From NCBI RefSeq assembly GCF_008831285.2, contig NC_045148.1, positions 17,601,002-17,665,001 of the forward strand: a stretch of DNA of 64,000 nucleotides. The letters run 5' to 3'. The first letter of the stretch is position 1, and each line of letters opens with the position of its first letter. The notes below the pieces were generated by a model, which saw nothing but the letters and a program-made list of their open reading frames with translations, searched no databases and was not told the DNA's origin. The DNA is from Nymphaea colorata. Lineage: Eukaryota; Streptophyta; Magnoliopsida; Nymphaeales; Nymphaeaceae. This document shows positions 13,520 through 51,030 of this stretch, piece after piece. The translations under genes were made by a program, and so were the position numbers.

Positions 13520-15920
13520 TTAAGCGATATACTCTTCATAGCGACAGACTCTGGCTTCTTTGTACACAAGGCCAGGTCTGCAGAAGTAGCCTTTGTCTGG
13601 GGCACAGTGTGAATCAAGAGAGCAAATGCATAAGCCTTCTAGTGCACACCGTGGCTTGTCAATCACCAACCCCTTCTCTTGCAAGCCCAAAACACTGTCA
13701 CTCCACTCTGAGGAGAACAACCCTTTGGGATCAAATTTGGTCATCACCTTCACAAACTTCTCTATTCTTCCATCCAGCTTCTCCTTCATCCCCAAGAAAC
13801 CAATGTTGCGGTTCTTTCCCCAATGTGGCAGCCCCCCATACTTGAACAGCCCCATCTGCTCAACCTCCTCCAGCACATCCTCATTGAGCCTTGGCTGCGA
13901 AGGATCATGCTCCCTGTAAATTGTGATGTCTATGTCGACGCAATCGGACGTCTTGCCGAGATACGCAGTCGAAGCCCTGACGAACCTCAACAAGATGCCG
14001 TTGTACCAGTCGAAGGTGCAAAGCGAGCGAGGCACCATGTCTCTTAGCTTCTTGACATCTCTTACGAAGTCTGAGATAGTCGCCAGGGAGATGCTAAAGG
14101 CCAACTGATCAGTGAAGGAACCATGGATCCTTGGATCCCATGCACAAACGGTGAGCAGGCCATTTTCCCTGTCGAATAGGCATGAGCCTGCAGCTTGCAG
14201 GTGGCTATGGTTTCCAACAACAGGGTACCCTGTAAATGCAGCCTGACAGCTCAGGTTGTTCCTTAGGCCATTGCCAAGAGAGAGGGTACCGTTAATGCGT
14301 GCTTCTGCTAGCATGCATCCGCCGGTGGAGTTCCTGGTGGCCTCAATTTCTTCTTCTGCAGTCACAAATTCGTTTCTTAGCAATTAACTCGGTGTTTACT
14401 AGCTAATGCAAATAATAGGCAGCAGTCAATGGGCATAATATAATAAGGGGAAGGCAGTAGTGTGGAAGTCTGAAAATGGTCTCGCTTCTGATCTGAACCT
14501 GTCATACGCGCAGACACGACCGCAGATGTGGGCTGTGACCTCAATCCGATCACATCATTTTCGCCGTTGCCGGCTTCTGTCAATGGTACTCGGAAATCCA
14601 CACGGTGAACCACGATCCTTTGAGAGGCATACCAGGTAATATCGCCAAACTCGGTGGTTCTACCGAATCTTTCAATTAATTCTTCAAAACTACCATCTCC
14701 ACCAGCTTCATTCGTTATGGACCTCTTAAACATTGGTTCCATCTGCAACGTCACCTGCATTTTCAGAGACATAAGTTCACAATTATAAGCACAAACGTGC
14801 ATGGATCCAAGAGATCAGTCACATCTATAATCTGTTGGTGATCTTGGTCATGATCTGTTTTGGATGCAAAGATTACTTTAAACTGATCTTATTCTTAAGT
14901 GGTGCAGGGGATGTTGACTCATTGGACTTACATCTGGCATTGGTAGCTCACCCTTGGGTAATGTTCTTCTAAATCCATTTAATGCGAATTGATCTTGGGG
15001 CAAGAAACAAACGAAAATTTTAAATTAATTATATTCAAAACTGAATAATCGGAAGTTGGTCAGCATGTATTCAGGTATTAGGTGAAGAATCAAATAAAGA
15101 ATTACCGATTTGGATTCGGATATTTTACACTTAAAAGACAGGCATTTGCAGCCAAGATTTAGATCATATAATAAAACCGTGAAGTTTTTTTAAGTTTTTC
15201 CTGAGAACTGATTACCTGAGAAATTGCTCCAAGCACACCAAGCGACACTTTTGCAGCTAGAAGGTCAGGGTCATCCTCTTCCAGGCAGATGACTTTGGCG
15301 AAATAGCCATCAACGTCGGGCGACGACGTCGGCACGACAATCCTCATGCCGACCACATACTCGTGGACAGCGCTCCCTTTGCCGAAGATGGAGCTACCAT
15401 GGGCGCCTGTGCTCAGCACCCCACCCAAGCTCAGGCCGAACCAGTATGGAGAATTGGGCAGGGCCAAACCGTGAGCTGCAGCAGCCTCAATCAACTCATA
15501 TAGCGCGATGCCACTCCCCACGGTCATCCTCATGGATTCCACGTCCACTCGGACAACACGATTCAGTTTTTCGGTACTGATCGCGAGACCGGTGCCGGGG
15601 GGGCCGCCGGGGCAGCAGAGCCTGGGGAGGTTGTGAGAGTAACGTGTGACGATCTTCATCTTCCGGTTGGCCATGGAGGCGTTGGAGACGACGACAAGGA
15701 GCTCATCCTCCGTGGTAGGGTAGGCAACAGCCGCAACCCAGCAGGCCTGGCGGTCCGAAAATGCTCCATAAGCATTCTGGACCAGGCAATTGGTGTTCCC
15801 AGACGTGCAGTGAACAACGGGCCCAGGTGGGCTGCCGGTAACCAGCGCAGGCCGGCTAATCAATGAAGCTAAGCTAGCAAGCAGGAAAGACCATGCTATG
15901 CAACACAAGGAAGAATCCAT
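13520..15920 (-). CDS. GULLO: L-gulonolactone oxidase-like protein, copy 1
   Basis: Three exons: 15216-15920, 14499-14754 and 13520-14355 (705, 256 and 836 nt), giving 598 residues. Introns are 461 and 143 bp, phases 0 and 1, with GT-AG ends. The protein has a signal peptide (residues 1 to about 27), an FAD-binding domain (about 55-240) with YSHNLPRLCCPGG and GLSLGGVLSTGAHGSS, an ALO-type domain with the HWGK motif near 498-501, and a C-terminal Cys-rich tail (CICSLDSHCAPDKGYFCRPG). Plant members are secreted FAD enzymes oxidising L-gulono-1,4-lactone or related aldonolactones; substrate here is inferred. The start is ATG at 15918-15920; the frame extends upstream only to a TTG. It is the unit A partner of the broken copy at 31.6-32.8 kb. 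Confidence 0.93.
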
Positions 15921-15991
15921 TTCCCTCGCCAACTTATGTGCATGTCAGGGAGATAAGTAGTGCTGGTCTGGGCCGGCCATTGGCTGAGCTC

Positions 15992-16003
15992 TATATATAT
16001 ATA
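15992..16003 (-). promoter_or_regulatory. TATA box of GULLO copy 1
   Basis: A run of TATATATATATA lies about 72-83 nt upstream of the ATG at 15920. The bases between it and the ATG, including GGCCGGCCATTGG, are shared with the broken copy (32887 onwards), which has its own TATATA at 32901-32906. Confidence 0.6.
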
Positions 16004-16009
16004 CATATA

Positions 16010-18520
16010 CAATGTATATGTATGTGAGAGAATTTCTGTTCGCGTAAACTAAGTATGGTCCACTATTAATCATTGCCAAAAAAGCAGAATTGCAAAAGTT
16101 TAAGAAACCTTGGAAAAGGGGAGAATCAACAGCTTTGTTAGAGAGAGCTGAAACATCTGAGAAGCCAGTGCACATGGCTTTCTCTACTGGCTTAATCAGT
16201 AGAGAGACCATTTCAACAAATGTCATGATGTAGAACTAATCTCTAGGGTAATTATTTCTTTCACATTGGCAATAAATGTTAAGATGATATGGCATCGTCG
16301 CCGAAAATGTTTTAGCATTTAAATGGCTAAGTTTTTCTTGCAGTATCATACCGCAAGCTTTTAGATATATATATATATTAAAGTAAAGAATAAAAAATAT
16401 AATAAATGAAAAACTAATAACATAAACATAAAAAATAAGTAAATAAGAAATATATAAAAACAAGCCAACCGTAGCAAGTACCCCCAACATACCAATAGGA
16501 ATAAAAGTTAGTAAATGAAAGCAACCAGTTCGACAATAAAAAATGCAAAAAGTATAAAATGAAAAAAGCATTAAAAACGTGTATTCTTACGTTTCTATCG
16601 GCTTGACATTTTCTTTTAAAAAAAGGTGGTCCATTTTTTTTTTAGGTTTTATACTATTCATTTATGTGTATTTTATTTTAAAAAATACGCTTTTTGTGAC
16701 TTATTATGTACCACTCCCATCGGTTGACGGGCAGCATCTATAAGCCGGAAGTTGAGACAAATGCTACCAACAACAGTTATGGCGAAAGCAAGCACTTGTT
16801 CGAACTTTGGTTGATATTTTGCTTCAGGACTGGTGGCAAATGCCACCAACAACACTACAATAGTTATGGCGGAAGGTAAGTTCTTTTTTGTTTGTTTTGT
16901 TTTTGGACATTGAGCTTTAGTTGATACCATTGCTTTTTTGAGAGCCACTATCCCAGCTCAGGTTAATTGATATCCTGCACTTTTTCTCGAAAGAGATCTC
17001 CCCGAGCTTTTACAGGAACACTGAGACCACCATGACGAGATTGAGTTAGTCCACTTCCAATGAGGTAAATTCATAACGAATCTGTAGGAAACAGATTCAT
17101 AGAACAATAATAATATATGTTATTGTTGCCAAACAGCCTCTAAGGATTTAAAATGTGTGAACTCCATGCGGTGTGACTTTCTGCTACGAAAATCTAAGGT
17201 AAGATCAGAAACGACGATGGTCTGAGCCTTAATCTTTGAACTAAAAAATTCTAAGCATTTCCAGATCAAATGATGCCTGGAAGATGATTTTTAATGAACT
17301 TCTTCAGTTGGTTGCTGCTTCATTTTTCAGTCATATACATCCACCGGCCGGAAATGAACCATTCCACGTGGCCATGTTGGCTTCCTCGCATAACCATTTC
17401 TCAGACATGACTTACCAGCAGCTAAATAAATGCAGTGTAAAATGTGTGACAAAAATATATATTAATTATGTTTTTTGGCCTGATTTTCTCTAAAGTTTGG
17501 GGAAAGTATCCATCGACATGGTAGCGAACTTGATGCGACCAGCTACCAAACAACTTAGACTTTATAAGAAGACAATTCAAATAAAGAGGAGGGGTCGTTA
17601 ACCCATGTCAAGATGAACATGAACTGCCGACTAAAAAAGAAAAAAAAAATTGATGGGAGAACCAGTGGCAAATAAATTAAGCCCTGCGGCCAGATTTTGC
17701 TTACCAATTCCACTTTGCGATTGCCCTTAGCTAGTAACCATTTAGGAAATAATATATATTTGTGATCAATAAATTCTGTCGGTTGGTTAGTCCATTTTTC
17801 CACATGGTCCATTTGGTTTGTAAGGAAACGCTTCATTTTCCTCATCCGACCTTTAATTTCCCGGACGCCTACCAGCTGCAGTCTAAAGAAATCAAAACAT
17901 GAAAAATAATTGACTGCATTTGCGCAGGTAATTTTTCATTAAGAAAACTGTCCACACTTGTTCATGCATGGTGGCGTCGGGACCAATTGACCATCAAAAT
18001 AAAGCAACCACACAGTGGAGAAATTAAGGGATGAAGGGGATGGAGGGTCGAGAGCTTGGAAAAATGGATATGAAAATCTGTTTCAGTGTTCATCAGGTAG
18101 GCAAATTCGATGGAAAGAGCCAATTTGAAGCAAAACATTCCTTTTTGATCGCATCGATTACTTGTGGTTCATACGCTACATTCACTCGAGATTACTCTGC
18201 TTCTGTTTTAGAAAAATGGTATCGACACAGCTTATAGATCGATCCAGCAAGCAAACTCTGGACAAAATTATTGAGTACGAGTTTTTTTGGAACATGAACG
18301 CATAACGTGGTTTGGACGTGCATTTTAAGAATATAATGTTATTTCTAATCGAACATCTTCTTAAAGACTAGATATCATGTAAAACAAGATATATAATATG
18401 TTAGGATGCAGTTTTGATTTTTTGTCGTCAAAAAGAATCTCGCACGAAGCTGAAGGAGCTGTATTTACCCTCATCTTTGCCGCTGAGGAAAGTTTATCTT
18501 TTAAGGTTTTTTTGTGGCAT
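16010..18520. other. Upstream flank of GULLO copy 1, duplicated in unit B
   Basis: No coding sequence is recognised. The stretch aligns with 32880-35243 over nearly its whole length with many small indels. For example, the CATCCACCGGCCGGAAATGA region at 17338 matches 34287. Both copies probably hold distal promoter sequence and old repeats. Confidence 0.55.
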
Positions 18521-18790
18521 ATTGAACTGTCTTTGAAAAATATCGGATATGACAAGCAATTTTTTGATCGGATTCGGGTTTAAGAAATAACATACGATCG
18601 GATTCAGATTTAAGTAAATATCGATCGAATGCTTAACCATCTATCTCGGATTTCAAAGTAGCGTGATCTAATTCAAAAATTTCACCCAATTGAGCACGTC
18701 TAACATATTTTTTTAGATACGGGTTTGGAACAACTTCGTGAGTTGATCAAAATCCAGTGCTAACATCCGAATCCAAACCTGAAAAATTGA

Positions 18791-21379
18791 TTTGAAGTTA
18801 CGACCTATGAATGGTTGAGCAAAAGGTGTAGCCAAACACACCAACCTAAAGTTATAAAATAAGAATAATATAAATTGTATATGAATGTATAATAGGTAAT
18901 GACTTTTATTAAGTTGCAGATAATAATAGTCAAATAGTTACCATATACACCACTTAACTTAAAATATTTAAAACTATATCACATGAAACTAATTAATTAA
19001 TAACTCATATTTTATTTAATTAAACATTTTTTTATAAATAAGCAAACTATTATAGTTAAGACATCAACTAAACACGATATCTTAAATAATGTATTTATTT
19101 AATTAAAAATAATAATAAATACTTGTGTCAAAAGATTTCAATACAATGAGTATTTTTAAAAATATGAAATTAATCACAAATAAATATATTTAAAATAAAA
19201 CAGCTGTTGAACTCATAAAAAAGTTTTATTTATCAAATTATCAATTATTTATTTAATCAATCAAGTAAATTATTTTGTATAATCATATAATATGTTCAAA
19301 AGCCTTAGGTATTTGATATATAACACATAATTTATAAATTTAAAAAACAAAACCTAAAAAACAACAAATTATTTGATTTAATAAATTATATGATTTTATT
19401 AAATAATAAAAATTTAGGTAAAAAAAACACTTATTGCAATAAAGTTAAGAGGACTAACGCAAAAAGTTAGTGGGTATGTGGAAGAATGAAGGTTTGACAT
19501 CATTTTTTTCGGATATAAAGCAAAAGTCTTTTAATTAACACAATGAAATTGAAAAAAATCATTAAATAATGTCTTTCTTAAATGATAAATAATATGAGTC
19601 ACTTGATTTAATAATTATCAATAAGTGATTATCATTAAATACTAGTTTACTCCATCAAAATATATTATTATTTAAAAATAGACAAATCAATGTTCAATAT
19701 TCACAATTAATATGAAAAATGTATAAAAGTCATATGAATAACTTATGAAAAAAATATACAAATCGTATGAAATGAAAATCATATGAAAATATCTTTTACA
19801 GTAAATAGAAATCTTAAACACATTATGATATTCATTTTAAGTTGAAAACATCTTCACTATGCATAATATCAAATAAACATGTTTAGTATAAAAAAACTGC
19901 TAAACTTATAAAAAAATATTTATCAAATTATCAATTTACTTATTTAATCAATCAAGTAATTGTTTTGTATAATCATATAATTCATTCAAAAGTTTTAGGT
20001 ATTTGATATATAACATATAATTAACAAACTTGAAGACAAAAACCTTTACCTTTAAGAAAAAAGAATAAATTGTTTGATTTAATAAACTATCTTATATATC
20101 ATTGGAGTAATTATACAATTTTATGTAAAAAAAACAACTATTGTAATAATGGTAAGAGGACTAATAAATAATCTAATATATCATTGAAGACTCTTTTTAC
20201 CGATGTAACACAAATTATTCAATTAACTCAATAAAATAAGAAAAAATTATTAAATTACATATTTTTAATGAAAAATAATATGGGTCACCTGATTTAACAA
20301 TTATTATGAAGAAAGTATGAAAATCAAATATATTATTAAAAAAATGAAAAAATTGAATCAATGAACAGGTAGGTGCATACTCTTAAGTGTTTGTCCCATT
20401 AAAAATGACCTTAACCGTTGATGTGGACCATAAAAATAACAAATAAAATAAAATAAAGTATTTTAGTTTTCTACTATTAATTGACATGTCTCTATCATCA
20501 CTTTTCTTTAGTTATCTACATTGACAAAATCAACTCCATGTTCCAATTGGTGAGACAGAACTCAAAATGTTTATAATGAATACAACACCTCATAAAAAAA
20601 TGTTTTGAAAGAATTATAAATTTGAAAAAATAGTTTTTAATTAGTTTTAGATAATTAGTTCGATGTTTAGATGACACACTTAAACTCATTTCTTAAATAC
20701 ATAGGGATAAGGATTGATTAAGAAATTTTTTGTCACAAAAATCAAACTATAGTTTTAAAATTTTAAGTGAAGCAAAATCCTAATTTTTTGTTTTTTTTAT
20801 ATACGATAAACTTACCAGTTGTTTTGTTGCAAGAGTCAAACTATAATTTCAAAATTTTAAGTGAAGCAAAAACATAAATTCTTAATTTTTTTTTATATAT
20901 GATAAACTTACTAGTTGTTTTGTTGCAAGAGCCAAACTATAGTTTTAAAATTTTAAATGAAGCCAAAACATATTTTTTTTATTTTTTTTATATACGATAA
21001 ACTTACGAACAGCTGTGTTGTTGAGATTTCTTGATACAATTTTTTTTATTATTTTTAATTAAATAAATACATTATTTAAGATATCTTGTTTAGTTGATGC
21101 CTTAATTATAATAGTTTGTTTGTTTACACAAAAACGTTTAATTAAATGTAATATGAATTATTAATTAATTAGTTTTATGTGATATAGTTTTAAATACTTT
21201 AAGTTAAATGGTGTATATGGTAACTATTTGACTATTATTATATGCAACTTCATAAAAACCATTACCTCTTAAACATATTATACCTTCATATACAATTTAT
21301 ATATATTATTTTTCATAATTTAAAGTTGGTGTGTTTGTGTAAACGTTTTGCCCAACCATTCATAGGTTGCAACTTCAAA
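18791..21379. mobile_element. Non-autonomous DNA element with about 330-bp inverted ends
   Basis: The left end (18791-19120, starting TTTGAAGTTACGACCTATGA) is repeated in inverted orientation at the right end (21043-21379, ending GTTGCAACTTCAAA), with similarity along about 330 bp. The inside is extremely AT-rich and non-coding. It includes an internal duplication (about 19200-19450 and 19900-20150) and three tandem units of about 97 bp (about 20740-21005). Long inverted ends suggest a Mutator-like or foldback element. No target duplication was found next to the ends. Confidence 0.65.
20740..21005. repeat. Tandem repeat, about 97 bp x 3
   Basis: Three imperfect units, each containing CAAACTATAGTTTTAAAATT and ending in ACGATAAACTTAC, with CAGTTGTTTTGTTGCAAGAG joining the first two junctions. 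Confidence 0.75.
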
Positions 21380-21940
21380 ACGTGGGGATACTAACTCAAG
21401 CTCTCAGAGTTCGGATTTGGATCGAATTCGGACATAACTTAAAATTTAGATTTGGATCAGATTCTGATTCGAACATAACTTAAAATTCAGATTGATTCAT
21501 GTATAACTTTAAAATCAGATTTGAATTAGATTCGAATATAACTTCAAAATCAGATTCAAATCAGCTTCAAGTATAACCAAAAAATCGGATTCAGCTGTAG
21601 ATTTTAAGGTCGAATATGGTATAAATTTTTTTTCATCCGAATTCGAATCCTATTCCAAATTCGAATATATGAATATCCGAAATATCAGATATGATTTATA
21701 TGTTGGAATATCTATTTATCACCTAACGATCAAGTACTCTCCAATCAAAATGTCTTAGCGCACGATAAAAACGAGTTACGATGAACAGTGGATATTTCGG
21801 ATGTCCAATCACTCATTTATTCAAGATTATTTCATATACATTGTACAACGCGCAAACACATGAGTGCAGATGCAGTGTCTTGCATGTGCTTATTATTAGC
21901 TGAGGCTCAGCTACTCCATGACCGCGATGCTCCTTTTTGA

Positions 21941-24900
21941 TTAAGCGAAAGGCTTTTCATAGCGACAGACCCTGGCTTCTTTGTAGACAAGGCCAGGCCT
22001 GCAGAAGTAGCCTTTTTCTGGGGCGCAATGCGAATCACGAGAGCAAATGCAGAAGCCATCTAGTGCACACCCTGGCTTGTCAATCACCAGCCCCTCCTCT
22101 TGCAAGCCCAAAACACTGTCACTCCACTCTGAGGAGAACAACCCCTTGGGATCAAATTTCTTCATCACCCTCATAAACTTCTCTATTCTTCCATCCAGCT
22201 TCTCCTTCATCCCCAAGAAACAAATGTTGCGGTTCTTTCCCCAGTGAGGCAGCCCCCCATACTTGAACAGCCCCATCTGCTCAATCTCTTCCAGCACATC
22301 TTCATGGAGCCTTGGCTGCGTAGGATCATGGCCCCTGTAGTGTGTGATGTCCATTTCAACACAGTCAGACGTCTTGGCAATATACGCAGTCGAGGCGCGA
22401 ATGAACCTGAGCTGCATGCCATTGTACCAATCGATGCCACAAAACGAGTCAGGTGCCATGTCTCTCAGCTTCTTGACATCTTTTATGAAGTTTGAGATGT
22501 TCGCCATGGGGATGCTAAAGGCCATATGGTTGACGAACACACCATGGACCCTTGGGTCAAATCCACAAACAGTGAGCAGGCCATTTTCCTTGTCGAATAG
22601 GCAAGAGCCTGCAGCCTGCAGGTTGCTATGGTTTCCAACAACGGGGTACCCTGTAAATCCAGCCGAACTGCTTATGTTGTTTCTTAGACCATTGCCGCCA
22701 GAGAAGTTATCGTCCGTCAGTGCTCTTGCTAGTAAGCATCTGCCGGTGGTGTTCATGGTGGCTTCATGTTCCTCTTCTGCAACCACAAGTTCCTTAGCAC
22801 ATTGAGTTTATACAGTCCAAATCAAATGGTAGGAAGCAGTCACCAACATCAAGGGTAAGGCAGTAGTGTGGAACTAGTTCGTTAATGCAAATGACAGATT
22901 TTAATACTACTAACTAGTTAAGGTAATGAATCTTTTGTGTAATTTGTCATAAGATGGCGACCTACTCTACTCATAATGCACGCTCACTCACTCTTTTGTG
23001 GTTTTTATAATGGCAGCCACCGATTATACCAAACACCCAATTGCTAGACATATAAAGACGAGAGTTTTTAGCTTTAGATCTGAACCTGTCTTGCGCAGGG
23101 AGACGATCACGGTTGATGGCACTGGCCTGAATGCAGTGAAATCATTTTGGCCATTGCCGGGTTCTGTCAAGGGGACTCGGACATCCACACGGTGCATCAC
23201 TTTTCCCTGAGCGGGATACCAGTTCAGATCGCCAAATTCAGTGCTTCTACCGAATTGTTCAATGTCATCTTCAAACCCACTGTCACTACCAACTTCATTC
23301 GTTATGGACCTCTTGAACATTGGTTCCATCTGCAACGTCACCTGCATTGTAAAAGACATAAATTCACAACTCTAAGCATACGTATGCATGAATAGATCCA
23401 AGAGATCGATCGCAAACTATGTAATCTGTTTGTGATTTCGGTGATCAAACATGGATGCAACTACTATAAACTGGTCATATTTTTTTGGGGATACAAGGGT
23501 ATTTGACTCATTCTGCATCTGGTACTATTGGGAACCAATGATGCAATTGACTGGATCTTGCAAAGCAACAAAGTGACTTCAGATGTTAGTCTAACCGGTA
23601 GAGTATGTCTCCATCTGAATCAGATTTGAGCCATTAACGTGCCATGTTATTTATGATCACTTTGACAAAATTCGGTCGACAAAAACCAAAAATTTTGTAA
23701 GAGGGAGGGCGCGTGTTAATTTGCGTTTGATTTCTATCTTTATACTGAAAGATCCCATAAACCTGGTTCAAGTTAAATATATCTTCCAGTTTAATTTACT
23801 GTCCAGCCACAATCAGTTAAACCTGGTGAGCAATCCAGTACAATCCAAATCTCCACTCGCTTGAAAATCCACAGTTCTTATTTTTTCAATAAAAAATGAA
23901 CCAGATAAAAACCGAGGGAGGCAAAAGAATCGTGGTAGTTTTTATATAAAGTAGTTAAAAAATTAAAATATATACAAGAAACTTAATTGGTATGAAAATC
24001 TCTGTTTCTGTTTTGTTAGGGCCATTAATATTCGACATATATATTGTTACTTGAAGATCCAAATAAAGAAATACCGGAATATAGGACTTAAAAATTTAAT
24101 ACTCATTTAAAGACTATTTGCGTGCCTACTGGTTCCTGGACTTTCCATCACATCATACGAAAGTGGACAAGATAAGAAGTTGTTACAACTGATACAGGCA
24201 GGGAAAATCACAGTATTCAGAGAAAGAGCAGAGGAAGAACAGAGAGATAGAGTAGATTTTTCTGTTCAGGTTTACTTTGAATTATAACAACTTCTTGGAA
24301 CAGTCTAAGAGATGGAGTTAATTCGATAGACTTTATTTACTAAAAGAGGTCATAGAATAAGAACACATGCAAGCTTTTCCTGAGAACCAGTTACCTGAGA
24401 GATTGCTCCAAGCACACCAAGCGACACTTTTGCTGCCAGAAGGTCAGGATCTCCCTCTTCCAGGCTGATGACTTTGGCGAAGCGGCCATCAACCGACGAC
24501 TTCGTCGGCACGACGATCCTCATGCCGACGACATACTCGTGGACAGCACTTCCCTTGCCAAAGATGGAGCTACCGTGGGCGCCTGTGCTCAGCACTCCAC
24601 CCAGGCTCAGGCCGAGCCAGTATGGAGAAGTGGGCAAGGCCAGACCGTTGGCTGCAGCAGCGTCGATCAATTCATAGAGGGTAATGCCGCTCTCCACAGT
24701 CATCCTCATGGATTCCGCGTCCACTCGGACAACCCCATTCAATTTTTCGGTACTGATCGAGAGGCCGGTGCCAGGGGGGCCGCCGGGGCAGCAGAGCCTG
24801 GGGAGGTTGTGAGAGTAACGTGTGACGATCTTCATCTTCCGGTTGGCCATGGAGGCGTTGGAGACAACGAGAAGGAGCTCATCCTCTGTGGTAGGGTAGG

Positions 24901-25093
24901 CAACAGCCGCAACCCCGCAGGTCTGGCGGTTCGAAAATTCTCCATAACCATTCTGGACAATGCAATTGGCGTTTCCATTTGCGCAGTGGACAACCGGCCC
25001 CGGTGGGCTGCCGGAAACCGGCGCAGTTCTGGTAATTAATGAAACTAAGCCAAAAAGGAAGAACCAAGCTATGCACGAAACGAATGAACTCAT
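21941..25093 (-). CDS. GULLO: L-gulonolactone oxidase-like protein, copy 2
   Basis: Three exons: 24395-25093, 23086-23341 and 21941-22776 (699, 256 and 836 nt), giving 596 residues. Introns are 1053 and 309 bp, in the same phases as copy 1; the first donor is CAG|GTAACT and the second ACAG|GTTCAG. It has a signal peptide (MSSFVSCIAWFFLFGLVSLI), an FAD domain with YSHNLPRLCCPGG and TGAHGSSIFGKGSAVHEYV, an HWGK motif near 496-499, and a Cys-rich tail ending in RVCRYEKPFA. The role is as for copy 1: a secreted FAD-dependent aldonolactone oxidase. It is the closest relative of copy 3, but in exon 3 it has private changes (GFDPRVHGVFVNH, ARALTDDNFSGG) where copies 1 and 3 agree with each other. 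A TATATATA box at 25133-25140 lies 40-47 nt upstream of the ATG. Confidence 0.93.
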
Positions 25094-25132
25094 TTCTCCC
25101 GACTTGACTTGTTTGTAGGTGATCAGTACACA

Positions 25133-25140
25133 TATATATA
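25133..25140 (-). promoter_or_regulatory. TATA box of GULLO copy 2
   Basis: TATATATA 40-47 nt upstream of the ATG. The same spacing and neighbouring bases occur before copy 3. Confidence 0.6.
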
Positions 25141-25149
25141 GACAAGTAG

Positions 25150-26270: not shown

Positions 26271-26291
26271 ATATATATATATATATATATA
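26270..26291. repeat. AT microsatellite
   Basis: A short run of alternating AT. At the matching place in unit B it has grown to about 60 bp (48277-48337). Confidence 0.85.
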
Positions 26292-26292
26292 G

Positions 26293-38830: not shown

Positions 38831-39341
38831 ATAGTTTGTAGTCCCCAGAGATGATTCCTGCATGCATGTGGGAATTTGTCATGTGAGAGGAAGTGATGAA
38901 TGGGAAGCGGAGTAGTTCATAAATGGGATGGCCAATCTGATTGGTGAAAGACAATGTGATGTGTGCTTCATTGCGGGTCCTAAAAAAGTTAAATGGTGAT
39001 TTGATGAGAGGTGGAAACCACTCCCTCCCTTTCCCTCACCTTTGGAGTTCAAGGCTACTTCAAAACCTGGGTGAAAAGTATGATTGTATGACGCTTGTCA
39101 ACTAGAGTGTAATGCATTCATCATTTGCAGTATGAGTGTGACATCCGTAGGAATTTATAAAAGTGGCTTCATAAAGGCCTAAAATCATTCATTTTTTCAT
39201 TTTTCAGACTTCACTCCACTCGTGGTAATTCAAAAAGTAAGTTAGCGAGGGGAGAAAACAACTCTTCGTTGTTGATGTTGCTATGTGTATAAATCTTATT
39301 GTCTATTTTAAATTTCAGATTTTTTGTGTTAGCTTATTGAG

Positions 39342-41523
39342 ATGATGAAGAAAAATATTCAAGATTATTTAAAAAAAAACAAGTTATTGACCAATTGGGA
39401 GAAAACCAAGAGGGAGAAAACAAAAATGCTGGTTGTTGTAGTCCGAAAGCTCTTGATGTTGTTCTTTTTTACTCAGATTCTCCACCTTTTAGGTATTCAA
39501 AAATTGAAATTGTAGAAAACATCGTGCGTAATCCAGGGTTACAACGACCTATATGAGAGATACCAATAAATAAGAGAGATGAAGTTAGGCGAACATATAT
39601 CAATTATGGGTCATATAAGCATAAGTTTCATAGATGTCCAGTGTCAGGTCCTTGAAGTCAACCTCGTAAATTTCAAGCTTTTTGGTTTCAAAGATTTTCA
39701 TGGTTAGACTATTCTTTAAAAACAGATAGTACATATTGTTTACCGTGTTATCTTTTCAGTACTCCAGATTCAAATGACAGTCCATTTATTACTGAAAGAT
39801 TCAGAGCTTGGAAGAGGGTGGGTGGTAGTGAGAAAACATGTGTTTTTCGTAGTCATGAAGGGACTAGTCAAAATTTGCCTCATGAGTTTATTAAAATTTT
39901 AGCTAATTATAATGACAAAGTTGCATAAGTTGTTTTGGATAATAGCCTAAAAAATGCTAAATATACATCACCAACAGTTCAGAAAGAAATTTTACATGTT
40001 TTTACAAGTAAAGTGAGCTAAAATTATAAAAGAAATTGGTGATGCTAAATATTGTATTATTATTGATGAAACTTGAGATGAGTCCAAGAAAGAGCAAATG
40101 GCTGTTGTTCTTAGATTTGTTAATAAGCAAGGACAAGTTCAAGAGTGATTTTTAGATGTTGTGCATGTGAGGGATACTACAGTAATTACACTGAAGAATA
40201 TAATTTATGCTTTGTTGTCTCAATATAATCTTAGTATTTAAGATATACGAGGTCAAAGATATGATGGTGCTAGTAATACGTGAGGTGAATGGAATCGATT
40301 GCAAACATTAATTTTAAATGAATGTCCTTATGCATATTATTTTCATTGTTTTACTCATAGATTACAACTTGCACTTGTTGCAGCTTCAAGAGAACTTGTT
40401 GATGTTCATAGCCTTTTTGAACAGTTGACATATGTAATTAATGTTGTTAATGCAAGCAGTAAACGTAAAGATGAATTGCACGAAGCTCAGGCAAATGAAA
40501 TTGCATTTAGAATTGCTATAGATGAACTTCAAATAAGAAGAAGACTTAATCAAATTGGTTCATTACAGCGGCATGATGATACTAGATGGAGATCTCATTT
40601 TTCGTCTGTGTGCAGTTTAATAAAAATGTTCGATGCAACATATGTAGTATTGAAAAATTTAAGAGACAATGGATCAACGTATCAAATACGGGGTGAAGGT
40701 AATTCAGCTTACAAAATGATAACATCATTTGATTTTGTATTTATTTTTTCATTTGAAACAAGAAATTTTGGGACAGAGTGATATTCTTTGTGAGACATTG
40801 CAGAGGGAAAGACAAGACATTCTAAATGCAATGAGTTTAGTTTATAATTCAAAAAAGTTTCTACAAAAACTTAGAGAGACTGGTTGGGATTCATTTATAG
40901 ATATTAGCAGAGCATTTTGTATGACACATGATATCCCTATTCCAGACATGGATGAACAATATTTTGTAAGAGGATCACATTCCTGTCGTGAACGTAATTT
41001 CATTACAGTGAGACATCATTATCATGTTGATATTTTTATTGTTGCCATTGATTCTTAGCTGGTAGAATTGAATAGTAGATTTAATGAGAATTCTATGGAC
41101 ATACTTCGTTTGATGTCGATATTCGACCCTAAAGATCAATAATGAGTCGTTTAATGCACGAATGCACGAGATGCCTACACTCTTCCACAGAAGTTTTATC
41201 CAGAAGATTTCCTAGATTTAGATTTTATGGGTTTAAATTATCAGTTAAGACATTACAAGAATGATATTTGTTATCATCTAAGTTTTCAAAATTTGGGTAC
41301 ACTATCATATGTATGTGAAGTATTGATACAAAGTAAAAAAAGTGAAGAATATCCTTATGTATACTGGTTGCTTAGTCTCATCCTAACACTTCTTGTCTCC
41401 ACTGCAACCACAGAAAAGGTATTCTCTGCTGTGAAACTTATTAAAACAAGGTTGCGTAACAAAATGGACGATGAATTCTTTGCAGATTGTCTACTTTTGT
41501 ATATTGAGAAAGAAATTGCTTAA
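39342..41523 (+). pseudogene. hAT transposase (TTF zinc finger/DUF4371 type), decayed
   Basis: In order along the plus strand: a TTF-type zinc finger region (YINYGSYKHKFHRCPVSG, about 39595-39650), the DUF4371 RNase H-like part with IIIDET, RGQRYDGASN and FHCFTHRLQLALVAASRE (about 40050-40390), HDDTRWRSHFSS, and the C-terminal hAT dimerisation region (STATTEKVFSAVKLIKTRLRNKM, about 41400-41465) ending in TAA at 41521. At least eight stops and several frame changes interrupt it. Many stops stand where relatives have Arg or Gln, as expected from C-to-T changes. The family resembles plant zinc finger MYM-type-1-like transposases. Confidence 0.9.
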
Positions 41524-42071
41524 ATGTTTAATTTAGATGATATTATTCATGCATTTTATAAAATGAAAAGCCGTAGAGCACAATTACAATAGGTAAAGTA
41601 TTTTGTTGCATCCTTTTTATGTTAATGTTTATTTGAATTATTATTTAGTTGCAATAATCAATGCTATAGTTTTTATTTATATTTTATTGTGTATGTAAAT
41701 GAATGATGATATGCAATTATTTTCAATAAAAATAAAAGCAAAAACTCATTGTGTATGCATAGAAAGAATGCAAAATTGCTTATTTTAGATAAGTAATATT
41801 TATTTTGGTTTTCGAGTTTGTAGATGTCTTTGTTCGCTATCTTTTTTGTTGTGATATTTGTATGTCTACTTTATGTTCACACCTACTTCACTGTAATAGA
41901 AATAGAGCACCTTATATGTTTAGGACAGATCGTGCTTTGTGCTAATGACACAAATATTTATTAAAATGTATCGTAGGACAGGTTGTACTTCACGTTCATG
42001 ATGTGGGTAATTATATACAACACATGTTCCCTTATACTATACTGTGGTTTTCAAATATCTAAAGTGTGTGA

Positions 42072-42072
<1 letters not shown>

Positions 42073-42138
<66 letters not shown>
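42073..42138. repeat. AT microsatellite inside the hAT element
   Basis: An uninterrupted alternating TA run of about 66 bp, 65 bp inside the right end of the hAT element. Confidence 0.95.
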
Positions 42139-42144
<6 letters not shown>

Positions 42145-43607
42145 ATTACAGTTCGTTGGACCGTTCTGCATGCCCAGAGAAAAAATCCTGGCTCTGCCCC
42201 TGGTTGTGGTAATGTGTTTGGGAGTTATCCCGCCTTCACCACTAGTCTCGCCTGTTTGGAGCGCATGTGGTGCAAGGCCCTCCCGCCTTCGCCATTGGTC
42301 TCGCCTGTTTGGAGTGCAGGTGGTGCAAGGCCCCAGGATATTATTGTGTGATGTGCTTGGAGCGATAGGCTCATGCCTTTCAAAACTGGGTGTCATAAGG
42401 AATGATGAGTATCTCTTCTTAGAATTCACACATCCATGGACGAGTGCTCTTCCGCTGCAGCGTGAATGAATTCGTATTGTTTCGGGCCACCACAGGGGTT
42501 GTCTTTCAGCTGTAGGCTGCCCGCAGTATACACGTGCCTATGTTTGCATCCACGGGAACGGTCAATTCACTAAAGTTAATGTAAATGAAAGAATGTGCAT
42601 GAAGTGAATGTGATTGTGAAATGTGTTAAGTGTGGCCTTTGAGTGGCCTTCACGTATAATGAATTATGTGAGGGGCATTCTTGACAAGTCAAGAGACTCT
42701 ATGCCTAATAACGACATGATAGTGGTTTGCTTTCGTATTTGTTATAACTTTTATTTGAGCCCTTACCTTAAAGGGTTAGAGATTTATCTCGCTTGTTACC
42801 AAGCTTTCAATTGTTTCCTTTTTCAGGTTTTGGCGGACCTGGGGCAGTAGGTTAATCAAATGGCTTTACTCACATCCTATTGGAGAGGTTTTGGGTCTTT
42901 TGTAGTGTCGGCGCGTCATGTTTTGGTCTTTTTGATGTCTTGTTTTTGTTAGACATCAAAGTTGTGATTTGGGGTATTTTTTGTCATATGTGTTAATATG
43001 ATTTTTGTATGAACGAAATTCATTATTTTTGTATGAACAAAATTCATTATATAATAGAAAGTTGCCCCATTGTTTGAAATTGCATGGCTCATTTTCTTTT
43101 CAATTGTTATGTCGTGGCACCTCAATGTTTTATATTTAGAAAAAAAAATTGTTTGAGAGTCCAAAAATTGAGGTGTAACATATAATGTACTTTATTCGTG
43201 TATTTTAAGAATATAATAATATTTCTAACCGAACCTCATCTTAAAGACTAGATAACATGTAAAACAAGATTTATAATATGTTAGGATGCAGTTTTAATTT
43301 TGTTTCGTCTAAAAGAATCCGGCACGAAGCTGCATTTAGCCTCGTCTTTGCCACTCTGAGGAAAGTCTAGCTTCTAAGGTTTTTTTTTATGGCATATTTA
43401 TCACCTAACGATTTGATCAAACGTCTTAGTGCAGGATAAAAACGAGTTAGGATGAACAGTAGACACTTCGGATGTCCTACCATTCATTTATTCAAGATTA
43501 TTTCATACACTGTAGAAAGCGCAAATACATGAGTGCAGATGCAGTGTTTTGCATATGCTTATTAGCTGATGCTCAGCTACTCCATGACTAAGATGCTCCT
43601 TTGTTGA

Positions 43608-45618
43608 TTAAACGATACGCTTTTCATAGCGACAGACCCTGGCTTCTTTGTACACATGGCCAGGTCTACAGAAGTAGCCTTTTTCTGGGCCGCAATGCGA
43701 ATCAAGAGAGCAAATGCAGAAGCCTTCTAGTGCACATCCTGGCTTGTCAATCACCAGCCCCTTTTCTTGCAAGCCCAAAACACTGTCACTCCACTCTGAG
43801 GAGAACAACCCCTTGGGATCAAATTTCTTCATCACCTTCACAAACTTCTCTATCCTTCCATCCAGCTTCTCCTTCATCCCCAAGAAACAAATGTTGCGGT
43901 TCTTTGCCCAATGTGGCAGCCCCCCATACTTGAACAGCCACATCTGCTCAATCTCTTCCAGCACATCTTCATTGAGCCTTGGCTGCGCAGGATCATGGCC
44001 CCTGTAGTATGTGATGTCTATTTCAACACAGTCAGACGTCTTGGCAACATACGCAGTCGAAGCGCGAATGAACCTGAGCTGCATTCCATTGTACCAATCG
44101 ACGCCACAAAACGAGTCAGGTGCCATGTTTCTTAGCTTCTTGACATCTTTTATGAAGTTTGAGATGTTCGCCATGGAGATGCTAAAGGCCATCTGGTGGG
44201 TGAACGAACCATGGATCCTTGGATCCCATGCACAAACTGTGCGCAGGCCATTTTCCTTGTCGAATAGGCAAGAGCCTGCAGCCTGCAGGTTGCTGTGGTT
44301 TCCAACAACGGGGTACCCTGTAAATCCAGCCGGGCTTCCTATGTTGTTTCTTAGGCCATTGCCGCGAGAGAGGGTATTCTTCATCCTTTCTCTTGCTATT
44401 AAGCATCTGCCTGTGGTGTTCATGGTGGCTTCATGTTCTTCTTCTGCAACCACAAGTTCCTTAGCACATTGAGTTTATACATTCTAAATCAAATGGTAGG
44501 AAGCAGTCACCAACATCAAAGGTAAGGCAATAGTGTGGAACTAGTTCGCTAATGCAAAGGACAGATTTTAATGCTACTACCTAGTTAAGGTAATGAAATT
44601 TTTGTGTAATTTGTCATAAGATGGCGATCTACTCTACTCGTAATTGTGATTTTTTTTACGGCAGCCACCCATTATACCAAACACCCAATTCCTAGAGATA
44701 TAAAGACGAGAGGGTTTAGCTTTAGATCTGAACCTGTCTTACGCGTGGAGACGACCATGGATGATGACTGTGCCCTGAATGGACTGGCATCATTTTGGCC
44801 GTTGCCGGGTTCTGACAAGGGGACTCGGACATCCACACGGTGAACCACTTTTCCCTGAGAGGGATACCAGGTAACATCGCCAAATTCAGTGCTTCTACCA
44901 AATCTTTCAATGTGATCTTCAAACCCACTGTCACTGCCAGCTTCATTCGTTATGGACCTCTTGAACATCGGTTCCATCTGCAGCGTCACCTGCATTGTAA
45001 AAGACACGTATTCACACTCTAACCATACGTATGCATGTATAAATCCAAGAGATCGATCACAAACTATGTAATCTGTTTGTGATTTTGGTGATCAAACTTG
45101 GATTCAACTACTATAAACTGATCATATTTATTTTGGGGATACAAGGCTATATTAACTCATTCTGAATCTGGTACTACTGGGAAATGTAGATGCAATTGAT
45201 TGGATCTGGCAAAGCGACATAGTGACTTCAGATGTTAGTCTAACCGGTACAGTATGTCTCTATCTGAATTAGATTTGACATATATATTGTTCGTCATCAC
45301 CCTTGAGCAAATTTTTCCAAGTCCACTCATTATAAATTGGTCATTCAAATCATGTTCGGACTTGGATAATTCAAATGCGGACGGAATATCTTCAGGTGTT
45401 GTTACTTGAAGATCCAAGTAAAGAAATACCGGAATACAGGACTTAAATTTGATAGTTCATTTAAAGACTATTTGCTTGCCTACTAGTTCCTGGACTTTCC
45501 ATCACATCATAAGAAACAAGACAAGATAGAGGTTGTTACAACTGATAAAAGCAGAGAAAATCACAGCATTGAGAGAAAGACCAGAAAGATAGAGAAGAAT
45601 TTTCTATTCAGATTAACT

Positions 45619-45698
<80 letters not shown>

Positions 45699-45959
45699 TT
45701 CTAGACAGTGTTGTACGTAACATATGATATGGAGCTGCATAGTAATCGTTGTATTTCGAAAATGCGATATGTTATAATATCTGTATCCTACAATTATATA
45801 TATGTTTTTACTGTTTTTTTATTATTTTTTTAGATTTTTTTTTATTAATGTTTTTCAAATACGATACAGTTATGGTATTTTATGATACAACATCTCTTCA
45901 TACAGCTTGGGATGCGCTTTTTACAACATTGGTTCTAAAGAGTTCACCTAAGCAAGTAG

Positions 45960-46021
<62 letters not shown>

Positions 46022-47105
46022 TTCTAGACAGTGTTGTACGTAACATATGATATGGAGCTGCATAGTAATCGTTGTATTTCGAAAATGCGATATGTTATAA
46101 TATCTGTATCCTACAATTATATATATGTTTTTACTGTTTTTTTATTATTTTTTTAGATTTTTTTTTATTAATGTTTTTCAAATACGATACAGTTATGGTA
46201 TTTTATGATACAACATCTCTTCATACAGCTTGGGATGCGCTTTTTACAACATTGGTTCTAAAGAGTTCAGCTAAGCAAGTAGTAAGCTATTCTATTACAA
46301 CTTGTTGTAACAGTATAAGAGATAGAGTTAAGTCTATATAGACTTTATTTAGTAACGGAAGTCATAGAATAAGGCCATATGCAAGCTTTTCCTGGGAACC
46401 AGTTACCTGAGAGATTGCTCCAAGCACACCAAGCGACACTTTTGCAGCCAGAAGGTCAGGATGGCCCTCTTCCAGGCTGATGACTTCGGCGAAGCGGCCA
46501 TCAACCGACGACGCCGTCGGCACGACGATCCTCATGCCGACGACATACTCGTGGACAGCACTTCCCTTGCCAAAGATGGAGCTACCGTGGGCGCCTGTGC
46601 TCAGCACTCCACCCAGGCTCAGGCCGAGCCAGTATGGAGAAGTGGGCAAGGCCAGACCGTTGGCTGCAGCAGCCTCGATCAATTCATAGAGGGCAATGCC
46701 GCTCTCCACAGTCATCCTCATGGATTCAGGGTCCACTCGGACAACCCGATTCAATTTTTCAGTACTGATCGCGAGGCCGGTGCCGGGGTGGCCGCCGGGG
46801 CAGCAGAGTCTGGGGAGGTTGTGAGAGTAACGTGTGACGACCTTCATCTTTTGGTTGGCCTTGGAGGCGTTGGAGACGATGAGAAGGAGCTCATCCTCTG
46901 TGGTGGGGTAGGCAACGGCTGCAACCCAGCAGGTCCTGCGGTCTGAGAATGCACCAATGCCATTCTCGACAACGCAATCGGCGTTTCCATTTGCGCAGTG
47001 GACAACCGGCCCCGGTGGGCTGCCGGTAACCGGCGCCGTTCTGCTAATTAATGAAACTAAGCCAAACAAGAAGGAGCAGGCTACGCAAGAAACGAATGAA
47101 CTCAT
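43608..47105 (-). CDS. GULLO: L-gulonolactone oxidase-like protein, copy 3
   Basis: Three exons: 46407-47105, 44734-44989 and 43608-44443 (699, 256 and 836 nt), giving 596 residues. Introns are 1417 and 290 bp, with splice sites matching copies 1 and 2. It has a signal peptide (MSSFVSCVACSFLFGLVSLI), an FAD domain (YSHNLPRLCCPGG, TGAHGSSIFGKGSAVHEYV), an ALO-type domain with HWAK near 496-499 (HWxK kept, Gly changed to Ala), and the Cys-rich tail. Predicted role: secreted FAD-dependent aldonolactone oxidase. Intron 1 is inflated by a tandem duplication with AT and GA microsatellites. Exon 3 has a patch like copy 1 rather than its direct partner copy 2. A TATATATA box at 47147-47154 lies 42-49 nt upstream of the ATG. 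Confidence 0.93.
45640..46285. repeat. 323-bp tandem duplication in intron 1 of copy 3
   Basis: Two near-identical 323-bp units (GTTCTAGACAGTG at 45698 and 46021; AAGCAAGTAGTAA ending at 45962 and 46285). Each starts with an AT run (45622-45679 and 45962-46000) followed by a GA run. The shared open frame inside each unit is a by-product of the duplication. Confidence 0.92.
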
Positions 47106-47146
47106 TTCTCCTGACTTGACTTGTTTGTAGGTGAGCAGTGCACATG

Positions 47147-47154
47147 TATATATA
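47147..47154 (-). promoter_or_regulatory. TATA box of GULLO copy 3
   Basis: TATATATA 42-49 nt upstream of the ATG, placed as in copy 2. Confidence 0.6.
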
Positions 47155-47329
47155 CAGACAAGTAGAGAGGGGAGAGGGAGAAAGAGAGCGACTATTCCAA
47201 CGATCTCTAAACGTGATTTTTTACTGTGTGTGAATAAAAGGTTTCTGCAGTAACGTTTTAGAGAAAGTTTCCGCTACACTTCATCGACAAAAGGAGAGAA
47301 GAAAAGGTAAACCTACTTGGGTAGTTGAG

Positions 47330-47507
47330 AATTAAGAGTAGAACAAAGACTTTTTTTCAGAGGGGAGTCAAATGGTTCAATGAGCTTATTTAAGTAAAGA
47401 CAAACTGAATTAAAATTTTTTATTTTTTTAATATATATTTTTTCAATTAGTTGAGGTGGGGCCATGGCTTATATGAACCCCCTGCTTCGGCCTTCATTGA
47501 GAGTCGT
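47330..47507. mobile_element. hAT-type MITE, unit B only
   Basis: Unit A reads GAGAACAGTAAAGAGCTTGG at about 25338. Unit B has about 175 extra bases here, containing CAGAGGGGAGTC, GGTGGGGCCATGGC and CCCCCTGCTTCGG. The subterminal sequence resembles the MITE at 53262-53476. Confidence 0.5.
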
Positions 47508-48273
47508 ATAGAGCTTGGAAGCTTTTTAGGCCACATTGGGTGCACCACACTTGTTCTATACACAATGCATATGCACCAAACGGACTTCAGAACATTTTAG
47601 CCATTTCAGAAAGAAATGGACATATGTTGGAAATTTTGTTTTTGCCCATCTCATCGTATCTTCTTGTCCTTAATAAGTTAGCTCTTCCTTTAACGGACTA
47701 GGTTTGCACAAAAAGTTCTGTGCACCAAGGATAATACACAATCAATATGCACGAATAAAAACATAAAAAGAACATAGGAATCAGACGGATTAAAAAAAGA
47801 AAAACAGAATGTCTATATTTGACGTCACTTTTTTCATTCCTTTTGTAAAGGACCTCTTCTTGTTAATGATGAGGGGTATTATAATCATTTTGTAATCACA
47901 TGCACATATTTTTGTGTGAGCAATGGTACATTTAACCAGATTGAGCCTAATTAAGGGGTTCAGTGTAGTTGGTTGGGTCGCCAAAAGCTGGTAAAAGACG
48001 TTCAACTTTTGTAGGCACGAGTGCCAGGTCTTTCAATGAACAACAAAGTATTGTAGTTTGCTTTGTCATGGTTGTCTAAGAGGCAACATCTAAGCTTGAC
48101 AGAAAGGCAAACACTATCAACAAATTTTGAGGATTTCAAGATCAAAACTTTGAGGATTTCAAAATCAAATGATATCTGAGATTGATGATCATCGAATTTC
48201 TATTAGTGACCCTTCACTTTTTTGTCATAGTCAGGAAATAAGCCATTCCAACTAGGTAATTTCCTCATCACTT

Positions 48274-48276
<3 letters not shown>

Positions 48277-48337
<61 letters not shown>
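48277..48337. repeat. AT microsatellite
   Basis: An alternating TA run of about 60 bp, expanded compared with the matching site at 26270-26291. Confidence 0.95.
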
Positions 48338-48339
<2 letters not shown>

Positions 48340-48520
48340 CAGTCAGACCCTTATGTACCAGAATTAATGAAAATCCTGTAGACCACTTACTTTAAGTAGA
48401 TCATATTAAGTTGGCAGCCAGACCCTTATATACCAAAATTAATGAAAAGCCTGTAGACCACTTACTTTAAATAGATCAGTTGATAATATAGAAGTCAAAC
48501 TGTTTTTTAAAGAGGCTGAA
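48338..48520. repeat. Short form of the unit A minisatellites
   Basis: Two units of the 80-88-bp type and about one unit of the 52-bp type, against four of each in unit A. Confidence 0.8.
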
Positions 48521-48718
48521 ATATCTTTCAAATGACGGTGGAGGGGGGAGAGAGAGAGAGAGAAGCGAAAACAAATCAATTTCTTAAATGACAGCATGTG
48601 CATCTTTGAGGGGCATTTTTGTCTCTTGTGGGAACAATTTATCTTCCATATTTTTATCTTAATCCCCATCGTTTGATATGCTTAGAATCAACCAGATAAT
48701 CCCTATTAAATCTGGTGT

Positions 48719-48750
<32 letters not shown>

Positions 48751-48779
48751 CTTGAATCTTTTGTTGTCGTGTGTTGGAT

Positions 48780-51030
48780 ATTGTCAAATAGCTAAAATTA
48801 GAAAATTTATTGCTAAAAAAACAATAAATTATTGTTAAAAACACCATGAATATTCTTGTTTCATTAGTTGTTTCTGATGCTCATGTGACTGCAGTTTTTG
48901 AGTGGCAGATTTTTAATTTTTAGTTATGCGACAACATCCGGCACTCAACAACATATGTGCATGTGTAATTTTTTTGTTAATCTTTTATTAAGAATAATGT
49001 GATCAAATGTAAGAAAATTTCCATCCTTAGCCACCCGTCTTGGTCATAACATGACTGCCAACGTAATTATATTAACTACCTAAGAAGGCAAAATACAAAA
49101 GATGGATCACTAAGCTGAATATAAGGACCACTTCAATGCCAAACTTGATGGAAAACCATTTGGACATAAAGTCCCTACGTCATAGATTTGCCCACCCTTT
49201 TCATTCTGAAAGACTTGCCCTTAAATCAGGGCGGAGTTAGAAATTTTTTATGAGGAGGGGCCGAATCAAAGTTTTAAAATTTTAATTAGGGTCAAAATAT
49301 TATTTTTCAAATTTTTTATACAAGTGAAATTTTCTAAAATTTACATATAACTTTTTTTAAAAAAAAATTAAGATAGGGCCAAAACTCAAGCGGGCCGTAC
49401 CTTGACTCTGCCCCTGCCCTGAGTAAAAGCAATAGTAGATGTTTGATTACCAATCAATTCCTTCGGTTGGCCATTGTGGTGTCCATACGACCATCAAAAT
49501 AAATAATATATATTGGGATTTGTAATAAAAGTGTTATACAAAACAAATTAATAACTCGAAGCTATCTCTTTTTGAGGAAAGAACTTAATAGCATTCTTAA
49601 GAGCTTGTCATGAATTAACGGTTATTGGAAGGTACTAACGAAGCACCTAATTGTCGCATTTAATTACGATAGTATTTGATAGCTTCTTCAATACAATTCA
49701 AGAACACTGCGCTCTATATATGGCTTGCAAAATTAAATCATCGCATGTGGTAGTTCTTTATGCTCAGGATGAATAATCGATTCGATTCCACGGAAGATAA
49801 GATTCTGGAAATTGAATCCACTTTCGTGAGTGCCTTGAGAAGTGTAACATATATATATATATATATATATAACCTGAGTAAGTAGAAGAAAACGAAATCA
49901 AAATTGCACTCGTTTCCCTGTACTGCCTACCAATATCTTTCGTCACATTGTTCTCTTGGTCGTTGAGGCATGACTCGACTTGGTCCGGTGTACCAGACGA
50001 GGCTGGCGTCCGGTGTACCAACCAACTCGACAAGACGGTATTGAATATAAAAAGGTGAGAGTTGGGGCACTTTGCAAATTATCTAAAAAGAAATATTCTT
50101 TTTTTGATCTTTTTATTTTTTTAGTTTTCTTTCCTTATAAAAAGAAAATTATTTTTTATTAACCATAAACAGTTTGGTCATTAATCATACTAACACAGAA
50201 AAGAAATTGTGCCCCAACAGCGAATACATATAACCAGCTTTGGGTACCCAATGTGTGGCCAGTTGCCCAAAGCCACAAAAAAAAAACTTATTTTTATAAT
50301 GATATTTTAAGTTATTTTTTTTCATTTACGTGCTGGTATCTCTTAAAAATATAAAATTTATTATTAATGCTTTTTAACTATAAATGTTCTAATTTTCTAT
50401 CTCCAAACCAAAATGTGGACCAATAAATGGTGGGCGGCTTGGTTGGTACCGTGAAATGCGGCTCTCCCCACTCTACGGTAGTAAGGTGTTTGATTATAAG
50501 AACATTATTGTAGTTATTTTTAAGATACAGGTTTTAAGAAGACTATGTATGTTTTTTGTTTTCAAAAGCATAGTATATTATGATTATGAGTGGCTTCTTA
50601 TAGACGATCTAATCAAACGCGAGACACATTACACCATGCTTTCTATTAACAAGAACATGATATTTCTGGAACGTGCAATTTTCCAATTAGAATACATTTT
50701 TTTTCCTAGTATGCCACATAGCTTGAAAGGGTTAGAATTCGGGTTCAGCCGCCCTCATCAAATTCAATTTGATTAGATTTTGTGTAACTGGATTGAGATC
50801 CAGCCACAAACTTCAATTATTTCCAGAAAATAAAATTGAATTCGGTTAGTATTTTATGTACAAAATTTATTTGCAACCGAGTTGATTTTTTTAATCAGAT
50901 CCAGGATTCCATAATTTAACAAATATTTGAATCCAGTTACAAAACTGTTCATCACATTCCAGTCCGATTATTTAATTGTGTCCGGATTCCTTTATCTAAC
51001 TTGACTAAGAGGACTTAGAGTCGAACCAAG
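48780..51030. other. Distal upstream flank in unit B
   Basis: Pairs with 27650-29675. Apart from the MITE at 49227-49416 no feature beyond shared old repeats is seen. The open frame at 50456-50776 spans the old MITE also present in unit A. Confidence 0.5.
49227..49416. mobile_element. hAT-type MITE, 190 bp
   Basis: The ends are CAGGGCGGAGTTAG and TTGACTCTGCCCCTG, an imperfect inverted pair like the hAT ends at 37275 and 42202. The interior is AT-rich and non-coding. A related gene-free flank at about 59850 lacks it (GCCCCAAAATTAAGGCAATAG against GCCCTTAAAT...AAAAGCAATAG). The 8-bp target duplication is only partly recognisable. Confidence 0.7.

Follow-up and report, generated by a model that had tools for sequence, protein, structure and literature searches.

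GULLO genes of the window

We analyzed a 64,000-bp stretch of the Nymphaea colorata genome (NCBI RefSeq assembly GCF_008831285.2, contig NC_045148.1, here C11, positions 17,601,002 to 17,665,001 of the forward strand), referred to below as the window, which carries part of a tandem array of genes of the plant GULLO (GulLO) family. Four members of the array, G1 to G4, lie in the window (Table 1). G1, G2, and G4 are intact, each with three exons on the minus strand and conserved splice sites, and each matches the NCBIfam plant GulLO model TIGR01677 over the whole model (760 to 762 bits; curated cutoff, 383.1 bits). The Pfam domains FAD_binding_4, ALO, and GULLO2-like_3rd were found in the frames with exons 1 and 3 of these three genes, and the HWXK motif, named for the family in PMC11505616, reads HWGK in G1 and G2 and HWAK in G4. 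In score, domains, and motif these genes thus resemble plant GulLO/GULLO proteins (TIGR01677; Arabidopsis GulLO1-7), and no feature from outside the family was seen in the searches made of them. Among 22 solved structures listed, nothing came closer than L-galactono-1,4-lactone dehydrogenase (8qnr; E 5e-14) and alditol/xylitol oxidase (2vfr; E 7e-11), whose matches are confined to the flavin adenine dinucleotide (FAD) domain of G2 (residues ~94 to 245 of 596).

PMC11505616 and PMC6077269 describe members of the GulLO family as FAD dependent and linked to L-gulono-1,4-lactone, with secretion predicted. The nectar GulLO of Mucuna sempervirens, an AtGulLO5-like family member also predicted to be secreted, formed no ascorbate in vitro and showed weak oxidase activity on L-gulono-1,4-lactone, and oxidation of this substrate is disputed even for known family members (PMC6077269). 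Since the nectar member made no ascorbate, we use "gulonolactone oxidase" as a family name, and the enzyme function of the array genes is a predicted one.

G3 lacks the last ~140 codons and most of exon 1, in whose place stand 73 bp of other sequence (32685-32757); its exon-2 acceptor has changed from AG to AA, and frameshifts and stop codons interrupt its reading frame. In the 919 columns common to all four genes, 133 informative sites group G1 with G3 (a-type) and G2 with G4 (b-type), against 2 and 1 sites for the alternative groupings. Synonymous divergence (dS) is 0.326 for G1-G2, 0.367 for G1-G4, and 0.123 for G2-G4, and in the last pair the ratio of nonsynonymous to synonymous divergence (dN/dS) is ~0.6 (0.073/0.123), suggesting relaxed constraint. 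Intron 1 of G4 holds a 324-bp tandem repeat (45639-46285) that begins in an (AT)n run and is 99.4% identical, either very recent or an assembly slip. We also considered a chimeric G1, since its last 140 codons seemed nearer to the b-type genes (dS of 0.213 versus ~0.4), but do not claim it: the difference is weak (P = 0.074 versus G2 and 0.023 versus G4), and in those codons G1 remains outside the G2-G4 pair (bootstrap, 82).

Table 1. Positions of the GULLO genes, duplicated units, inserts, and divergence tracts, in window coordinates (G5 to G7 lie to the right of the window)
Feature	Position	Strand	Basis or remark
G1, a-type GULLO, intact, 598 aa	13520..15920	-	Exons 15920-15216, 14754-14499, 14355-13520; TIGR01677, 760.4 bits
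Unit A, portion mirrored in the GULLO part of unit B	13942..29671	+	Self-comparison, block alignment
T1, low-divergence tract	13942..15022	+	K2P 0.052
T2, low-divergence tract between normal-divergence tracts	17182..18308	+	K2P 0.063
A insert, AT-rich dispersed repeat	18524..21712	.	~350-bp inverted arms (18791-19141/21021-21379); self-comparison, own-genome search
G2, b-type GULLO, intact, 596 aa	21941..25093	-	Exons 25093-24395, 23341-23086, 22776-21941; TIGR01677, 761.1 bits
Unit B, left end, a copy of C11:17567253-17568358 (from 33.7 to 32.6 kb to the left of the window)	30343..31604	+	Own-genome match
Unit B, portion mirrored in unit A	31605..51040	+	Self-comparison, block alignment
G3, dead a-type GULLO copy	31605..32834	-	Lesions in exons, acceptor, reading frame
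B insert, ~3-kb outer element (relative on C6) with nested hAT-type element	~35250..43180	+	Pfam, own-genome search
G4, b-type GULLO, intact, 596 aa	43608..47105	-	Exons 47105-46407, 44989-44734, 44443-43608; TIGR01677, 762.5 bits
Scar of deleted plus-strand GULLO slot (our reading)	59140..59144	+	Upstream-type flank joined to downstream-type flank
G5	70448-73478	+	Open three-exon model
G6	78831-82353	+	Open three-exon model
G7	85729-89102	+	Open three-exon model

Two colinear units and their inserts

Self-comparison of the window gave a colinear off-diagonal, in the same (+) orientation and order, from 13942/31605 through 29671/51040. Pairwise alignment of the two units that it defines, A and B, yielded 13 main blocks totaling 8,648 aligned columns with 807 mismatches; this count leaves out short hits within the tandem repeats (near 25.9-26.8/48.1-48.5 kb) as well as some hits below ~75 bp. 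The shared flanks are not made of dispersed repeats only. In searches of the plant's own genome (407.8 Mb, 783 contigs), the 50067-51040 part of the query 50067-53500 matched only itself and the unit A copy among the best 40 of 2,197 candidates. The 28720-29671 part of the query 28720-31604 matched unit B at 1,131 bits; among the best 40 of 112 candidates it had 13 further matches (76 to 165 bp, 73 to 103 bits), all within its first 291 bp, indicating that a short dispersed repeat is included there. The stretch 13942-15022 had 14 matches, namely, itself, unit B, and GULLO paralogues, whose identity as GULLO was checked. The units are thus adjacent, colinear, and in the same orientation, with flanks that reach beyond dispersed repeats, confirming a direct tandem segmental duplication of a two-gene GULLO block.

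The initial annotation of this DNA had proposed that a pair of GULLO genes was copied together with flanking DNA in the same order and orientation, which both the colinear blocks and the grouping of informative sites bear out, and its unit coordinates were accurate to ~10 bp. Its further claim that a gene pair was copied, as opposed to single-gene duplication, holds insofar as a block was copied but is too strong: an older duplication made the pair (dS, 0.33 to 0.37), and on the plus-strand side of the array the repeating unit is a single gene with its flank. Nor did the pair copy give two working genes: G3 is a dead fragment, and G1, G2, and G4 are intact.

Each unit contains one large insert, at a different place, and the other copy has the corresponding empty site, as had been proposed. 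The empty site of the A insert lies in unit B at 43395-43398, with only a 4-bp overlap, TATT. That of the B insert lies in unit A at 18308-18317, and a near-perfect target repeat of 5 to 8 bp flanks the insert (CATAATGT/TATAATGT; empty site, CATAACGT). We discarded the idea that the B insert is a single hAT element because, in the genome search, the hAT part proved to lie inside a separate outer element. A Pfam scan of the B insert in three plus frames placed DUF4371 (~39.85 to 40.30 kb) and hAT dimerization (~41.3 to 41.5 kb) domains in the nested element (~37275-42280) and gave a zf-RVT match as well (~38.3 to 38.4 kb). The nested part recurs at no fewer than 35 genome places of at least 1.2 kb, 34 of them at 84 to 91% identity and one at 75% (best 35 of 2,232 candidates). 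Long terminal inverted repeats were not found at the outer ends of the B insert, and a Pfam scan of the A insert in one frame gave no match. Both inserts are dispersed repeats, and the natural reading is that both arrived after the duplication, more firmly so for the B insert.

Spacer, joints, and extent of the copied segment

A 1.9-kb spacer separates the end of unit A (29671) from the start of the GULLO part of unit B (31605, inside exon 3). Within it, 30343-31085 is a copy of C11:17567253-17567986 (92%) and 31242-31604 a copy of C11:17567996-17568358 (87%; 89% for 31242-31472, left of the last 132 bp). This match to a left parent extends up to 31604 and meets GULLO exon 3 at 31604/31605. 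The sequence at this second joint is AATCAGACTTGTTG in the left parent, AATCGGACGTCTTG in the GULLO parent, and AATCGGACTTCTTG in the joint itself, with short imperfect microhomology between the parents. The spacer pieces have divergences (K) of 0.15, 0.06, and 0.14, values within the range seen over the remainder of the unit. In the parent, a dispersed repeat runs through the site (-32774 to -32408 in window coordinates) and reaches 235 bp beyond the joint; the same repeat in unit B (31473-31614) is cut at the joint, as predicted by deletion. Pfam searches of the spacer in six frames gave no match.

The unit is therefore not just the 16-kb pair of the initial annotation: the copy starts with sequence from 33 to 34 kb left of the window and is without 46.6 kb. 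A tandem duplication of ~64 kb followed by loss of C11:17568359-17614942 (46,584 bp) from the second copy would be the simplest way to account for both the spacer and the truncation. The implied unit ends at C11:17630672 and measures 64,039 bp if it starts at 17566634 or 63,420 bp if it starts at 17567253. The stretch missing from unit B includes frames (L025:3567-4847 and L037:2455-3555) that resemble a MYB of the AS1/PHAN type and a receptor kinase of the malectin type.

We consider a stepwise history probable. One GULLO gene would have duplicated to give the a-type and b-type genes (dS ~0.35), after which ~64 kb with both genes and other DNA (C11:17,566,634 or 17,567,253 to 17,630,672) would have been duplicated in direct tandem (noncoding K ~0.12). 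In the second copy, the 46,584 bp that lay between the left end and a-type exon 3 would then have been lost by joining at the short microhomology, truncating G3, which separate further lesions would have hit. Each copy would later have gained its own transposon insert, and tracts of both would have been homogenized by gene conversion. Several observations weigh against this history. The order of duplication and then deletion is one that we infer, and the 132 bp leading up to the second joint belong to a dispersed repeat with at least 20 short matches elsewhere. At the first joint the boundary is blurred, with 29672-29815 matching neither side and 29816-30342 made up largely of repeat remnants. 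A weaker piece, 29816-29975, fits C11:17566634-17566811, which adjoins the parent on its left, but is an equally good fit to a dispersed relative at C11:11885917. Therefore, only the segment from 30343 onward is firmly placed.

The main rival is that unit B was the direct product of a single replication-based template-switching event, of the fork stalling and template switching/microhomology-mediated break-induced replication (FoSTeS/MMBIR) type. In this case, the fork would have left the end of unit A, copied 1.3 to 1.7 kb from 33 to 34 kb to the left, switched by microhomology into exon 3 of G1, and run to the unit end, making a later 46.6-kb deletion unnecessary. Such a path is consistent with the short shared sequence near both joints (a run of (TA)n in one case, AATC-GAC in the other) and with the unrelated 73 bp that stand in the exon-1 gap of G3. 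However, (TA)n runs are common sequence, and the exon-1 gap and pseudogene lesions require further events anyway; we regard this account as unlikely. Far less probable is an assembly artifact in which two haplotypes or homeologues were placed in series. Although the near identity of the intronic repeat in G4 means that the assembly of the region deserves a check, the ~12% noncoding divergence, the G2-G4 dS, the copy-specific inserts, and the deletion joint all argue against an artifact, and no N occurs in the window or in the flanks examined.

Divergence between the copies and the wider array

The duplication had been expected to provide a single local clock, which the divergence between the units does not support. 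Two tracts, T1 and T2, are less diverged than their surroundings: Kimura two-parameter (K2P) distance is 0.141 between them and 0.083 to 0.163 in the other ten blocks, with values of 0.094 and 0.100 in the two main G2/G4 gene blocks. Noncoding differences number 18/411 (4.4%) in T1, 67/1,123 (6.0%) in T2, and 147/1,141 in the stretch between, compared to a rate of 0.116 over 4,587 sites (11.6%) outside both tracts. Outside the tracts, the lowest 1,123-site window is not below 0.097 (693 overlapping windows) and the lowest 411-site window not below 0.063 (836 windows). Tracts of significantly lower divergence thus lie beside normal divergence. Binary segmentation found T1 alone, and circular segmentation found T2 as well (P = 0.01, the floor of 100 shuffles). 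The left segment in the spacer is also uneven (42/730 in one piece and 45/362 in the next), which brings to three the tracts that differ by 5 to 6%, compared to ~12% for noncoding DNA elsewhere.

Private changes in the 919 shared columns number 36 for G1 and G3 compared to 68 for G2 and G4 (P = 0.0016), although G3 is dead, and T1 covers introns of this dead gene. Together with the uneven divergence, these observations suggest later gene conversion as the source of the low tracts. The alternative of slower mutation or constraint acting on a duplication of one age, which is compatible with other structural accounts, appears doubtful to us. Rate variation is present outside the tracts, and a 157-bp stretch of T2 is still recognizable upstream of the b-type gene G2 (68%), as that alternative would have it. 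However, it sits poorly with low divergence in introns of a gene dead in one copy, with fewer differences between G1 and G3 than between G2 and G4 across those 919 columns, and with T2, which has no long open frame common to both copies and has gaps of 1, 4, 1, 4, 2, 3, 8, 1, and 1 bp. Against conversion, the low tracts lack perfectly sharp edges, divergence drifts from 17 down to 6 to 7 per 100 in the right end of the unit, and mild overdispersion (1.32) is seen in the noncoding counts outside the tracts; mutation may thus account for some of the unevenness. It is also conceivable, but quite unlikely in our judgment, that a large tandem duplication and its collapse are legible here base by base: that one episode of replication slippage, switching templates several times, produced the copy, the chimeric joint, and the truncated gene together, and that concerted conversion has since kept patches of the dead gene like its live partner.

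The array extends 25 kb rightward from the window, with three more intact genes, G5 to G7, on the opposite strand and one deleted slot. Scanned separately against TIGR01677, exons 1 and 3 of these genes scored 272 to 276 bits (under the whole-protein cutoff) and 386 to 389 bits, respectively. Pairwise dS among them is 0.080 to 0.132, close to that of G2-G4, and ~1.0 against the minus-strand genes; their flanks recur at 59144-64000. The older dS, the recurring flanks, and the scar suggest that the array grew by both single-gene and block duplication and lost genes by deletion. A 420-bp direct repeat upstream of G5 (64753-65172 and 69870-70287; 98%, 5.1 kb apart) could be a young long terminal repeat (LTR) element. 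Two GULLO exon-3 matches off the array (C1:28199055-28199560 and C11:17731517-17731667) are probably fragments. No publication on this GULLO array was among the papers listed in the literature searches.

Elsewhere in the window, a short open frame on the minus strand just downstream of G1 (12095-12470) ends in RLVPTGPNPLHH and looks like what is presumably a CLE signaling peptide precursor; within 9700-13500, Pfam was scanned at this frame only, with no match. A Copia-type element at 4255-9690 has LTRs 0.052 apart (K2P) and a 5-bp target repeat, AACGG, and probably postdates the block duplication. A ~1.26-kb dispersed repeat immediately to the right of unit B (51647-52904) has matches on many contigs. 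Rfam at gathering scores gave no match, nor did Pfam on 1-4250 (six frames) or on 51041-64000 (three minus frames and one plus frame, with a second plus frame from 53500).

In its direct-order copies, transposon inserts, and dead copies, the locus resembles other tandemly arrayed plant gene clusters, in which block duplication, pseudogenes, and conversion occur. It differs in that the second copy appears to have been reduced by a 46.6-kb deletion, making the duplication look smaller than it was. What resembles a small gene-pair copy is here probably the remnant of a 64-kb duplication. We conclude that the locus is a real and informative case of ordinary gene-array evolution of a known kind, preserved in unusual detail. 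Because adjacent tracts of one duplication give ages ~twofold apart, dating such an array from one stretch is risky; with its two inserts, their empty sites, and the uneven tracts, the locus is usable as a small test case.

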